A stretch of DNA of 64,000 bases from Flavobacteriaceae bacterium S0862. GTDB lineage: Bacteria > Bacteroidota > Bacteroidia > Flavobacteriales > Flavobacteriaceae. The stretch spans positions 1-64,000 of the forward strand of contig JALKAW010000004.1 in NCBI GenBank assembly GCA_023015825.1. The letters run 5' to 3'. The first letter of the stretch is position 1. Every line of letters starts with the position of its first letter. The notes beneath the pieces were generated by a model. It was not told the DNA's origin and searched no databases. It worked only from the letters and a program-made list of their open reading frames with translations. Shown one piece after another: positions 19,543 to 24,053 of this stretch. The translations under genes and the position numbers were made by a program.

Positions 19543-19616
19543 GGTGGCATAGCTCAGCTGGATAGAGCACCTGCCTTCTAAGCAGGCGGTCCTAGGTTCG
19601 AATCCTAGTGCCATCA
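19543..19616 (+). tRNA. tRNA-Arg (anticodon TCT), island integration site
   Basis: 74 nt. Acceptor GGTGGCA pairs with TGCCATC (one G-U), anticodon loop CTTCTAA. The gene is intact, but from 19550 to 19621 it is repeated at 23982-24053, so the 3' part served as the attachment site of the island to its right. Confidence 0.95.
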
Positions 19617-19621
19617 CAAAA
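19550..19621 (+). repeat. Left attachment repeat of the tRNA-Arg island
   Basis: 72 bp identical to 23982-24053 except C at 19587 versus T at 24019. It covers the tRNA-Arg gene from the D-arm to its 3' end plus the CAAAA that follows. This is the layout left by a tyrosine recombinase that uses a tRNA 3' end. Confidence 0.88.
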
Positions 19622-19652
19622 TAACCTTCTGATTTACAGGGGGTTATTTTTG
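19618..19652 (+). terminator. Terminator after tRNA-Arg, at the island's left edge
   Basis: The stem AAAATAACC pairs with GGTTATTTT around a 15-base loop and is followed by T-rich sequence. It overlaps the end of the attachment repeat, so it is likely island-supplied. Confidence 0.7.
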
Positions 19653-19756
19653 TTTATAGTGGTTTCTATTACACCAGAGAACCAGATAAGTTGACTATTT
19701 TCTGACGCAAAACTTGCACAATACGACGCACACTTTGACCATAACACTTCTAATTT

Positions 19757-20266
19757 ATGGCAACTATTTAAACTACACTAGACACCAGAAGACCAAAATC
19801 TGATGGCAGATACAACATCGTTTACAAGATTAGACACCTTAAAAGTCTAGATTATTAACTTAGGAGTATCAATCTTAGAGCAATACTGGGATGGAGAGTA
19901 TTCTGAAATTAAAAAAAAGCACCCAAATGCTAAACTGCTAAAACTAAAACTGCTTAAAGATTACTTTAAAATTAAAAAAGCTATCCTTGCTCTTGATAAT
20001 GATTTTACTATTGAAAAGCTTAGAAATATCATTAAAGGAAATGCATCAAATAACTCAAAATCATTTAAAAGTATTGCACAAGAATTAATAGATCAGATGC
20101 TTGCAACTCATAATACCGGTAATGCTATTGTTTATAAAACTGCTATGAACAGATTTTTGACTTCTGTGTTAAGGATGTATTGTTTACCGAGATATATTAT
20201 AAACTACTAGAAAATTTCAGGCATTTTTTGTTGATTAGGGTAGTTTCAAAAAATCTAGAAAAATGA
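19757..20266 (+). pseudogene. Tyrosine recombinase (integrase) remnant, N-terminal half
   Basis: The ATG at 19757 opens MATI, then TAA at 19769 (ATTTAA where the family reads an Ile-Lys or similar), then TTLDTRRPKSDGRYNIVYKI in the same frame. A shift near 19845 leads into INLGVSILEQYWDGEYSEIK and a long helical region (to the TAG at 20208). A third segment in the first frame (VKDVLFTEIYYKLLENF) runs from 20168 to the TGA at 20264. The order matches the arm-type and SAM-like core-binding domains of Bacteroidota integrases. At least one stop and two frameshifts break it, and the catalytic domain is not found, so it is dead. It sits next to the tRNA attachment site as expected. The next 370 bases to 20635 show nothing I can support. 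Confidence 0.85.
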
Positions 20267-20635
20267 AATTTACGACATAGTTTTTCACAAGTTCTTCAAT
20301 TTTCCAAATAAAACATGACAAGTGCAGCTTAAATATCTATCAATACTTAGTCGCGTCCCTGAGCTTTATAATTAGCTCGGATGCTCCAGAGACAACATAT
20401 AAGATACACTACTTTTTTAGACATAGTATTATAAGTTGTTATGCTAATTTTAATTATGAGAGATAAAAGAGGTGACCTAGAAAACAACATATTTTATTAG
20501 TTTCTGGCGGGAATTGAAGTTTAAGGTACTTAGTATAATATAGCATTAGCATGCTTCTCTGGAGTAAATAAAAAAAATAGATTTAGAATTATTAGTAGTT
20601 AATTATTGTATTTTTAGAGAACCAACTAACATTCT

Positions 20636-21691
20636 ATGATTAAATTCTTCAGAAAAATACGCTACAACCTTATGGAAACAGGAAAAACGGGTAAATACTT
20701 TAAATATGCTATTGGTGAAATAATATTGGTTGTAATTGGAATTCTTATTGCCTTGGCCTTAAATAATTGGTATGAAAACGAGAAAAACGAGCAAGAAGCA
20801 AAATTAATACTCAAACAAATTCAGGAAGAATTATCAATAGATATTCTTGATGCGCAACGAATTAATAGAAGTTATTTATCCAGCGCTAGAGTCTCAAAAA
20901 AAATATTATTTGATTCCATTTCTGCTGAGGAATTTACTACAAATTATAGACTCTATTCTAGTTTAGATTTGAGATATGTCTCTTTTACAACCAATAAATC
21001 AGGATACAATAAATTATTGACTAAACTAGAAGTATTACCTGAAAAATTTAAACAGCTTATTCCTGATTTAAATTTTCTCTACGTGGAGGTACAAAATGAC
21101 ATCGATGATTTCAATACCAGATTAAAAAACAACACAGTAAGTCAGCGAAAATATAGAGATGAGAAATTCAAAGATTTATATGCCTGGGAGTCAGGCTTAA
21201 AGCTTGAGGGAGCAAAGATTCTCTTAGAGGATCCTTTTTATAAAAACAGTGTGCTCACTTCATTAATAGCTAAGCAACAACTTGCCAGATATGCAGGAGT
21301 ATATAAAGCAAAGGCTGTGGAGGTATATCATGCCATAGATTCTTTATTTATGCTGACAAGAGATAGCATCCCTGAACATCTAATCAGAACAGATTATTTT
21401 CGAAATCAGGAAGATGATTATTTAGGAGAGTACAAGAATGAAAAAAGTGGTGAAACAATAACTATTTCGCAAGATGCCGGAAAAATATCATTTATGTCTT
21501 TTTCTTATATCGATGATGATGATATAAGAAGATCAAGCCCCCAAATTCGTTTCTTGAAACATTATAGGCAAATATATTATCTCCCTGGAAGAGAGATGTG
21601 GTTTGAATTTAACAACGACGATCCTATACCTAAAATAAAGATTTTAACGCTTGATCCAGAAGATGAGTTATTTAACAAGATTCTTGAATGA
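20636..21691 (+). CDS. DUF6090-type membrane-anchored protein, copy 1 (long form)
   Basis: 351 residues. It opens with the basic MIKFFRKIRYNLME and GKTGKYFKYAIGE, followed by one membrane helix (about 30-48, IILVVIGILIALALNNW), as in DUF6090. Residues 50-245 are helical and charged and probably lie outside the cytoplasm. Residues about 255-351 (YLGEYKNEKSGETITI to the end) form an additional beta-rich tail that copies 2 and 3 lack. The function of the family is not known to me. It is the first of three paralogues in the island; 90 bases separate it from copy 2. The first 42 bases of this gene are nearly identical to those of copy 3, unlike the rest. Confidence 0.85.
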   Translation: MIKFFRKIRYNLMETGKTGKYFKYAIGEIILVVIGILIALALNNWYENEKNEQEAKLILKQIQEELSIDILDAQRINRSYLSSARVSKKILFDSISAEEFTTNYRLYSSLDLRYVSFTTNKSGYNKLLTKLEVLPEKFKQLIPDLNFLYVEVQNDIDDFNTRLKNNTVSQRKYRDEKFKDLYAWESGLKLEGAKILLEDPFYKNSVLTSLIAKQQLARYAGVYKAKAVEVYHAIDSLFMLTRDSIPEHLIRTDYFRNQEDDYLGEYKNEKSGETITISQDAGKISFMSFSYIDDDDIRRSSPQIRFLKHYRQIYYLPGREMWFEFNNDDPIPKIKILTLDPEDELFNKILE

Positions 21692-22510: not shown

Positions 22511-22536
22511 AACAATTGAAATGAACGAGAGGCTAA

Positions 22537-22649
22537 GAACGTATAATTCATTGCGTCTGAAATTCCTTTCGGAATTTCCTCGCTACTGAACAATGGGTTT
22601 ATGTTTATTTACTAACTTAGTGCTTCACGCAACGAAACCATACACGAAC
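22537..22649. repeat. Terminal-inverted-repeat element, copy A (MITE-like)
   Basis: About 113 bp. The left end GAACGTATAATTCATTGCG is the imperfect reverse complement of the right end CGCAACGAAACCATACACGAAC. Inside is a hairpin GAAATTCCTTTCGGAATTTC. Copy B at 45897-46016 has the same ends, length and inner ATTCCT/TCG motif. No coding capacity. Confidence 0.65.
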
Positions 22650-22672
22650 ACCCTGTGTTTCATTATGACCAA

Positions 22673-23422
22673 ATGATAAAATTCTTCAGAAAAATACGCT
22701 ACAACCTTATGGAACAAAACAAAACAGGCAAATATTTTAAATATGCCTTAGGTGAAATCTTATTAGTAATGATAGGTATTTTATTGGCATTGCAGGTTAA
22801 TAATTGGAATGAAAACAGAAAACTTCAAACTAAATCACTTGATTATTTGTACCGTTTAAAAGTCGATCTTGATAATGTATCAGCTGGTGTAAGTAGCAGT
22901 TTATTAGCAGCGGAACGAAAATATCATCAAGCATTAGTAGCTTTAGAGGTTTTAGAAACTAAGAAATTACCATATACTAAATGTGAAGATTTTGAAAATC
23001 ATTTAAAACAATACTTTCAATTTGAATTCACTATTCAAAATACAACTGCGTATAATGAAATGCTGAGTTCTGGTGATTTAGGTTTAATTAAAAATGAGTG
23101 GATGAGAAATGCTTTTGCTGATTTATCTGATGAACGTGAGTTTATAATAGAAGTGAATAAAAGCAACCATAATGCTTATAAAAACAATATGGAATTGATT
23201 GAAAAACACGTCCGTTATCACGTTTTAAATATAGATACTGATTCAACAAAAATCGATGTTGTATATGATTTTGATGCTATGGCTAATGATAAGCTTTTTA
23301 TTAATCAAGTTTCAAATCAAGCCTATACATGGTACGATATTTTAAGGCTTTATAAACGTTATGAAAGAGATGTCAATATAATTAAAGACAGTGTCCGAAT
23401 AGAGCTTGATAATTTTAAATAA
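22673..23422 (+). CDS. DUF6090-type membrane-anchored protein, copy 3
   Basis: 249 residues from the ATG at 22673; the earlier ATG at 22655 adds six residues and lies in the end of the inverted-repeat element. It has the same MIKFFRKIRYNLMEQNKTGK, then KYFKYALGE start and membrane helix (about 30-48) as copies 1 and 2, then about 195 helical residues that differ from both. No enzyme motif is seen. The first 42 bases differ from copy 1 at one position within the coding opening. The family is widespread in flavobacteria as multi-copy sets; function unknown. Confidence 0.83.
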   Translation: MIKFFRKIRYNLMEQNKTGKYFKYALGEILLVMIGILLALQVNNWNENRKLQTKSLDYLYRLKVDLDNVSAGVSSSLLAAERKYHQALVALEVLETKKLPYTKCEDFENHLKQYFQFEFTIQNTTAYNEMLSSGDLGLIKNEWMRNAFADLSDEREFIIEVNKSNHNAYKNNMELIEKHVRYHVLNIDTDSTKIDVVYDFDAMANDKLFINQVSNQAYTWYDILRLYKRYERDVNIIKDSVRIELDNFK

Positions 23423-23981
23423 TTTTTTTAACAAAAAAAATAGCAAAAGCACAACAACGTGTATAATTACTTTTAATAATTAAAATCTTTATAAATTTGG
23501 CTTATAGTTCTGCTTAGTTTATAATTAAAAAATTTTTTTTAAAAAAACTTTATAAGTTAAAAAGGTAAGACTACTTCTAACAATAACCCTACCTACTTTA
23601 AGCAATGTTCGTTTAACCCCACATTGTTTTATTTTACTAATCCCAAAGCTATGTTTACATAACGCGTAGTTATAGTAGCATTCATTTGATTTCTGGACTA
23701 TACGCCATTATGTAAAATAGCCGCTCTGCAACGCTTTAAATAGCACTTCCCATTTTTCTGCTAAAAATATGAAGAGCTATTTTTCCTTGCCAGCATGAGT
23801 AACGTATTATAAGCCTTACTGCGTAAAACTTTATAATACGCTACACATGCTTTTTTCTTGCCTTGCTGGGCTAGCTTAATAACAACAAATTTTTAGTACA
23901 TTTATAATAATAATCAGGTTAAAGTGATGCACATTACAGCGCACATTGCTTCACTGGAATCACAAAGGCTAACAAACATCG
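23423..23981. other. Noncoding right part of the island, palindrome-rich
   Basis: No gene is visible in about 560 bases. AACAACGTGTATAATTAC at 23453-23470 resembles the left end of the inverted-repeat elements. Two fold-back structures follow: TTTACATAACGCGTAG (from 23654) against CTATACGCCATTATGTAAA (to 23716), and a 21-22 base pair of arms at 23793-23813 and 23829-23850. Confidence 0.6.
23793..23850. repeat. Long inverted repeat (stem-loop)
   Basis: Left arm GCATGAGTAACGTATTATAAG (23793-23813) and right arm CTTTATAATACGCTACACATGC (23829-23850) pair over about 18 positions with a 15-base loop. No T-run follows, so it is not a standard terminator. Confidence 0.7.
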
Positions 23982-24053
23982 TAGCTCAGCTGGATAGAGC
24001 ACCTGCCTTCTAAGCAGGTGGTCCTAGGTTCGAATCCTAGTGCCATCACAAAA
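23982..24053 (+). repeat. Right attachment repeat: tRNA-Arg 3' fragment
   Basis: 72 bp copy of tRNA-Arg (anticodon TCT) from the D-arm to the 3' end. The bases before it (AACATCG) cannot pair with TGCCATC, so the acceptor stem is broken and this is not a tRNA gene. It marks the right junction of the island and is probably the original chromosomal 3' end. Confidence 0.88.

Follow-up and report, generated by a model that had tools for sequence, protein, structure and literature searches.

The window analysed here, a stretch of 64,000 nucleotides from Flavobacteriaceae bacterium S0862 (contig JALKAW010000004.1, positions 1 to 64,000), carries an island of 4.4 kb that lies between two copies of a tRNA-derived repeat, 3' of an intact tRNA-Arg(TCT) gene. 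We consider it highly probable that this island is a small integrative tRNA-Arg element, now dead, whose cargo of DUF6090-type genes came from an integron-like cassette population. As an island it is ordinary, a tidy addition to a known kind. Of greater weight is the finding of an integron-like system which does not qualify as IntI-type, yet has integron-like arrays, folded sites and breakpoints. On balance we favour the view that Flavobacteriaceae have an integron-like system of their own. It would consist of an insertion-less XerA-like recombinase and superarrays of attC-like sites (109 sites in the two arrays of genome G019), occur also on plasmids (Chryseobacterium) and use tRNA islands to ferry cassettes between chromosomes; DUF6090 would be a cassette family strongly expanded in Gaetbulibacter, with a conserved anchor and ever-changing tails.

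A Fossil Element Behind tRNA-Arg

The features of the island described below lie on the forward strand, save for its non-coding right end, to which no strand is assigned. A repeat search returned a direct repeat of 72 bp at 19550-19621 and 23982-24053 (spacing 4432), and inspection by eye found a sole difference between the copies, GCAGGC against GCAGGT, just as an earlier note on this DNA had described. The first copy falls on the intact tRNA-Arg(TCT) (19543-19617), which serves as the left attachment site (attL) and is the third gene of a tRNA-Ser, tRNA-Pro, tRNA-Arg(TCT) cluster at 19352-19617. The second copy, the right attachment site (attR), is a tRNA-Arg without the 5' acceptor strand. 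Indeed, the sequence AACAAACATCG directly 5' of it (23971-23981) is unable to pair with TGCCATC, and ARAGORN calls a complete tRNA-Arg(TCT) solely at the first copy, so that the acceptor stem reported as unpaired in the note is truly missing. AACAAACATCG is the element-side flank of the far site; the same 11 bases stand at the far end of a related element in genome G357, and ACATCG is found there in G054 and G167 too. Directly 3' of the intact tRNA lies a terminator-like hairpin (19618-19655) that is element-derived; it is near-identical in the intact G357 element (locus L071), while the empty sites carry a different hairpin. The chromosomal terminator of tRNA-Arg, a perfect 16-bp inverted repeat, has been displaced by the island to 24050-24082.

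The note had predicted that relatives free of the island would show tRNA-Arg followed directly by this displaced terminator, and such an empty site was found. Window sequence 19250-19621 joined to 24054-25300 aligns across the junction with the congener G002, in which tRNA-Arg is followed by CACAAAAAGCCTTACT..AGTAGGGCTTTTTT and then by the same downstream gene as in the window. Congener G005 has the same join, here read and not aligned. In both genomes the hairpin AAAAAGCCTTACT.. directly 3' of tRNA-Arg is the window terminator at 24050. G002 matches the window over 17240-19655 at 96.7% and over 23982-29598 at 87.3%, and on G002 these matches have 106 bp in common, which corresponds to the repeat and the start of the terminator. 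The distance from tRNA-Arg(TCT) to the downstream block is 65 bp in G001 and 54 bp in G003, where the match covers only the later part of that block, and about 1.2 kb in G004. Because the distances in G001-G005 are too short, the space for the island is absent in all five congeners. A comparison of base composition inside and outside, also proposed in the note, was not diagnostic and was rejected as a marker of foreign DNA, since G+C content in 500-base windows was 0.26-0.35 in the island and 0.25-0.43 around it, with the maximum over the tRNA cluster.

Just inside the left junction the note had placed a ruined tyrosine recombinase, and its reading held. The relic (19735-20224) is frameshifted and comprises the N-terminal part only. 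Its frame 19851-20210 matches Pfam Arm-DNA-bind_5 (PF17293; E-value 3e-6, score 28.1 bits, cut-off 22.6). Compared with the intact 412-amino-acid homologue in G357 (L071; 78.9% DNA identity), only residues ~8-174 can be recognised, in frames 2, 3 and again 2, and the homology ends at 20224, before the catalytic half. The window recombinase thus is not catalytically complete. As the catalytic half is lost, the island is a remnant that is unable to move itself.

Matches to the relic at E <= 1e-15 occur in 5/397 genomes of the family, its own included. In G357 and G054, which belong to two genera other than that of the window, the same Ser-Pro-Arg cluster holds a homologue with an open frame, of 412 amino acids in G357 (79% over the piece) and of 430 amino acids in G054 (L072; 68%). 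Each has a far truncated tRNA-Arg copy preceded by ACATCG, 11.7 kb away in G357 and 4.1 kb away in G054; this far-end pattern was seen in 4/397 family genomes, again including its own, and not at all in a reversed control. The window shares its left end with G357 (19618-20224, 78.9% DNA identity) and with G054 (19620-20219, 76.6%). Its non-coding right-end backbone (23531-23867) is shared with G357 at 77.7% (L071 6286-6621, near the far att copy). The cargo between the ends differs, being type I restriction-modification in G357 and DUF6090 genes in the window. The two tRNA-like copies would also be expected from a plain duplication of the tRNA gene, with no mobile element involved. We regard this as refuted and give it practically no weight, since in two further genera this tRNA holds elements whose integrase is homologous and open and which have a truncated copy at the far end, and since the congeners have empty sites.

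With tRNA-derived repeats of which one is an intact copy, a recombinase relic beside the intact tRNA and an empty site in relatives, the island is a fossil tRNA-targeted integrative element. The comparisons show that an element with a tyrosine recombinase targeting tRNA-Arg(TCT) integrated behind the Ser-Pro-Arg cluster, rebuilding the tRNA at the left and leaving the truncated copy at the right; the recombinase then lost its catalytic half, which left the island immobile by itself. The insertion and the dead recombinase thus support the earlier proposal that all DNA between the repeats is one decayed element, but joint arrival of the whole cargo does not follow, because the head of one DUF6090 gene is 85% like another array of the same genome (see below). 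Other tRNA-targeted islands of the Arm-DNA-bind_5 type are alike in their tRNA repeats and in the integrase beside the intact tRNA, and the sister elements in G357 and G330 carry defence-type cargo. The window differs in its N-terminal integrase relic and in its DUF6090 cargo with an attC-like spacer.

At tRNA-Asn in G330 (L074 1831-14141), a relative of the integrase (46%) belongs to an element whose cargo is an AbiLi/AbiLii-like pair; the two tRNA-Asn copies there are separated by 12 kb. We describe the occurrence of tRNA-Arg and tRNA-Asn integrases as target switching within the integrase family. A tRNA-Asn relative in G010 is also shortened, to a frame of 92 amino acids. A pattern search for the relic in the contigs of the genome gave 101 matches with no relative among them.

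The DUF6090 Cargo

The cargo consists of D1 (20636-21691, 351 amino acids), D2 (21782-22510, 242 amino acids) and D3 (22673-23422, 249 amino acids), all of which remain open frames. D1 (33.9 bits) and D3 (31.9 bits) score above the Pfam cut-off for DUF6090 (PF19578; 23.5), as the note had assigned them, whereas D2 stays below it (20.1 bits) and is linked to the family by the shared conserved head. The three genes do lie inside the island, but the label "cargo" is too plain for a family tied to integron-like cassettes. PF19578 was found at 77 places in the genome, 76 of them above the cut-off and many in tandem. In the congeners G001-G005 we counted 3, 29, 3, 42 and 38 matches in a search that scored fewer candidates and that gives 63 for the own genome.

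Proteins of the family share a conserved head, in which one membrane helix is predicted, and their tails vary. The non-synonymous divergence (dN) within D1-D3 is 0.11-0.24 in the heads and 0.81-1.13 in the tails. For D3, hydropathy indicates an N-terminal membrane helix, and an AlphaFold2 model (mean predicted local distance difference test score 91) predicts that a helical bundle follows it. Foldseek found no match of this model in the PDB at E <= 0.001. VIA-align matched it to helical bundles with a best Z of 11.9, a level that the tool calls common, and its rows include the sensor domains 4k0d (Z 8.8) and MCP2201 (Z 8.4). Since bundle matches at this level are common, we claim no function, and a sensing or surface role would be a guess. 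D1-D3 had no match in PADLOC, and D3 none among plasmids. The Pfam entry gives no function, and we did not find the name DUF6090 in the literature searched, which lay outside subscription journals and preprints.

D2 and D3 have full-length relatives in the metagenome-assembled genomes (MAGs) Ww86 and Ww87, at 77% (76.9% for D2 and its homologue in Ww86, L113) and 74%, respectively. Full-length homologues of D3 at 62-74% occur in distant Bacteroidota and in MAGs, among them one of 63% on a Neolewinella contig. Outside the island, full-length or nearly full-length matches to D2 and D3 in the six genomes of the genus reach at most 50%, with higher scores for matches to the head only. We therefore infer a lateral origin of the DUF6090 cargo. 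Part of it may have been exchanged locally, since the D1 head and the 40 bp 5' of D1 are 85% identical to the C22 DUF6090 array of the same genome; the D2 and D3 heads show 88% likeness to an own-genome array.

These likenesses would suit another explanation, in which an ordinary decayed tRNA element received its DUF6090 genes as chromosomal paralogues by homologous recombination and the attC-like hairpin of the island is accidental. That 57 of the 77 DUF6090 matches are without a recognised site fits as well. However, synonymous differences between the heads are high (proportion 0.53-0.85), so that their likeness mainly reflects protein conservation, and full-length relatives of D2 and D3 are far closer in the MAGs than within the genus. 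We hold this paralogue explanation to be unlikely and prefer a cargo that would have been drawn from an integron-like cassette population.

attC-Like Sites and Arrays

The gaps 3' of DUF6090 genes and of other genes hold imperfect palindromes with ends such as GCACAAC..GTTGTGC or GGCTAAC..GTTAGGC. An exact-motif search of the window for the half site CAACGTGTATAATT did no better than shuffles (11 matches against 11.8), so we used a covariance model instead; a scan with regular expressions had been noisy, with matches in shuffled sequence too. The model, R1, was built with the window sequence excluded from an alignment (A1) of 21 sites, six of them from the own genome, picked by hand for length and pairing among the listed rows of 363 gap candidates of a relaxed scan, many of which are chance. 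The consensus hairpin of A1 contains 19 pairs, and 11 of these show two-sided changes. Of its 399 cells, 95.0% pair; shuffles reach 78.4%, and sliding gives 41.9% at most. Two-sided changes occur in 56 cells, compared with 16.1 in shuffles.

R1 found 60 sites in the own genome and, at E <= 0.01, sites in 29/40 genomes, the own included. The order's other families contributed 15 genomes, of which ten had no R1 site and five had 1-6. The counts over the 40 genomes are lower bounds, since no more than 82 candidates were scored in any one genome (a number reached in G019), and G037, with 0 sites here, gave two weak ones in a scan of its locus. Same-strand DUF6090 matches adjoin 26 of the 60 sites of the own genome, where a rough random placement, limited to contigs of known length, gives 0.66.

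Two strong sites lie in the window. The one at 22528-22661 (53.8 bits, E 2e-11) stands between D2 and D3 in gene orientation. Both core triplets are changed, with TAAG and CCTG in place of the CAAC and GTTG of the model, and the site is probably dead. With both cores lost at the one recognisable attC-like site of the island, both levels of mobility look dead, the cassette level as much as the recombinase. By eye, 21743-21781 could be a degenerate half of a further site, although its R1 match (21743-21824, E 0.99) is not significant, and 3' of D3 only a left arm, GCACAACAACGTGTATAATTA, is seen in comparison with A1 (23449-23469). The second strong site (45890-46023, E 1.8e-12) is outside the island, directly 3' of an open reading frame (ORF) at 44703-45878 that is amidohydrolase-like by eye. 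G002 has another gene at this position, which looks methyltransferase-like by eye; from 46026 on the two are homologous again.

Two arrays were found in G019, a genome in one contig, with 59 sites over 2722286-2792575 and 50 over 2211807-2262817. All sites are on one strand save one weak mirror match of the palindrome, the median spacing is 925 bp and 832 bp, respectively, and 61/64 and 44/46 of the enclosed ORFs are on the strand of the sites. The two arrays have 19 blocks in common (>=97%, >=400 nucleotides). The lower ends of 17 of these lie within -5 to +15 of the core edge, a range holding 1.6% of positions, nine of them at +7. Upper ends fall within -5 to +40 (3.4% of positions) in 16 of the 19, at +10 to +38. 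A cut at G/TT predicts such offsets, because all sites agree in the bases that flank it. Both lower-end misses are inverted copies of a 1.67-kb segment, perhaps an insertion sequence, which we counted. At the sequence level, the block ends argue for a recent exchange of cassette units in G019, without naming its enzyme. Of the features typical of integrons, tandem foldable sites in one orientation were thus observed, as were breaks at the core, these in G019 only.

In all, 152 sites were found in 19 loci and 150 of them aligned. AAC stands near the end in 149/150 and GTT in 146/150. Since most sites fold and start within ~20 bases of a stop codon, one may ask whether they are terminators or passive palindromic repeats instead of recombination sites. 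We judge this improbable to a high degree: the AAC and GTT near the site ends, the one-stranded arrays and the block ends at the core in 17/19 cases speak against it, and a regular U-tract is absent by eye.

Several observations weigh against an integron-like system with DUF6090 cassettes. The island holds one significant attC-like site only, and that one is decayed. Hence it is not a cluster of attC sites lacking an integrase (CALIN), for which a passage in PMC9668308 gives at least two attC sites within 4 kb and no integrase. A recognised site stands beside only 20/77 DUF6090 matches, many DUF6090 genes overlap in an operon-like manner, and the DUF6090 motif, one of our own making, is absent from both G019 arrays; recombination of another sort could spread the DUF6090 arrays. 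Within G019, 25/107 intervals are without an ORF of at least 60 amino acids, 8/109 sites lie mostly inside an ORF of more than 100 amino acids, and the 19 blocks are not independent, as some reuse one stretch. Finally, the core consensus of integrons is GTTRRRY, which the right-hand core fits in only 8/146 cases. From the G019 arrays it follows that the system does not need DUF6090. Together with the 26/60 sites but only 20/77 matches that adjoin each other, this makes DUF6090 one cassette family of the system among others, often in operon-like runs.

A Recombinase at the Array Edge

The 59-site array of G019 ends at a gene for a tyrosine recombinase of 390 amino acids, and the site nearest to this gene is 1,047 bp away. 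We read 13 such loci, chosen by hand from high-scoring matches, one per genome (39 genomes had matches). Ten of the 13 have sites within 2.8 kb, and in the other three the contig breaks off no more than 210 bp from the gene. At eight of the ten loci the sites lie on the 3' side of the recombinase in the same orientation, with weak sites only in G037 (E ~1e-5). In G002 (L175) and G005 (L176) the sites are 5' of the recombinase and in opposite orientation, so that it points away from the array; these two perhaps represent a second subtype.

For four array recombinases that were scanned, NF040815 was the best family, with three reaching its cut-off, and all four remained below that of TIGR02249. 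NF040815 is entitled "site-specific tyrosine recombinase/integron integrase" (recomb_XerA_Arch), a name under which XerA and integrases are not told apart. TIGR02249 had no match over its cut-off in any of the 40 genomes, and in the own genome its model positions 198-237 were unmatched. Residues 280-300 of the L171 recombinase stand opposite residues 183-246 of IntI4 (2A3V), which makes it ~43 residues shorter at the IntI-specific insertion. The array recombinases thus do not have the insertion near patch III that marks IntI, and that passages in PMC9668308 and PMC8138268 describe as specific to IntI and necessary or essential. By eye, 12 of the 13 recombinases (L166-L175, L177, L182) have an N-terminal extension of ~75-115 residues before the Xer-like core, which is missing in the G005 protein (287 amino acids).

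Plasmid NZ_CP041688.1 of Chryseobacterium sp. SNU WT5 (L186 8968-17670) carries an array recombinase followed by attC-like sites in the same orientation, at 12082-12220 (E 2.8e-9), 17535-17670 (E 1.6e-4) and 11366-11503 (E 5.7e-4). On plasmid pHH1107 (FJ012881.1; L187 6052-8073), TnpF lies directly upstream of tet(X3), which sits at the position that a first cassette would occupy. TnpF is 54% identical to the C-terminal 62% of the array recombinase of the own genome. No significant attC-like site was found beside tet(X3) on pHH1107 (best E 0.61).

In Flavobacteriaceae, DUF6090-type genes thus stand among gene arrays separated by attC-like sites that can fold as single strands, as the arrays, site structure and breakpoints show. 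The units of gene plus site would be excised and re-inserted by the tyrosine recombinase coded at the edge, which most likely cuts G/TT of the right-hand core.

Relation to Integrons and Implications

The arrays resemble integrons and CALINs (IntI/attC) in that genes are arrayed on one strand, each trailed by an imperfect palindrome whose ends are AAC..GTT, a recombinase stands at the array edge, and cassette-sized blocks shared between arrays end at the core. They differ in their shorter recombinase, in its N-terminal extension, in its orientation, which usually is that of the array, and in the core, which mostly is not GTTRRRY. We file the system as one that works like an integron and is not a member of the IntI class. 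A passage in PMC9024848 names one complete integron in Bacteroidetes, that of Salinibacter ruber, and Bacteroidota appear among the phyla with integrons in parts of PMC8618304 and PMC9668308. Integrons are therefore already known in the phylum. Among the literature matches listed, we found none described for Flavobacteriaceae, nor any description of such arrays.

If this reading is true, the insertion held essential for attC recombination would be dispensable or replaced, perhaps by the N-terminal extension. This makes a mechanistic question testable, namely whether an enzyme that lacks the IntI-specific insertion can recombine folded attC sites. The cassette system would also explain the expanded DUF6090 paralogues, and it would give a major family of marine bacteria a large platform for gene capture.

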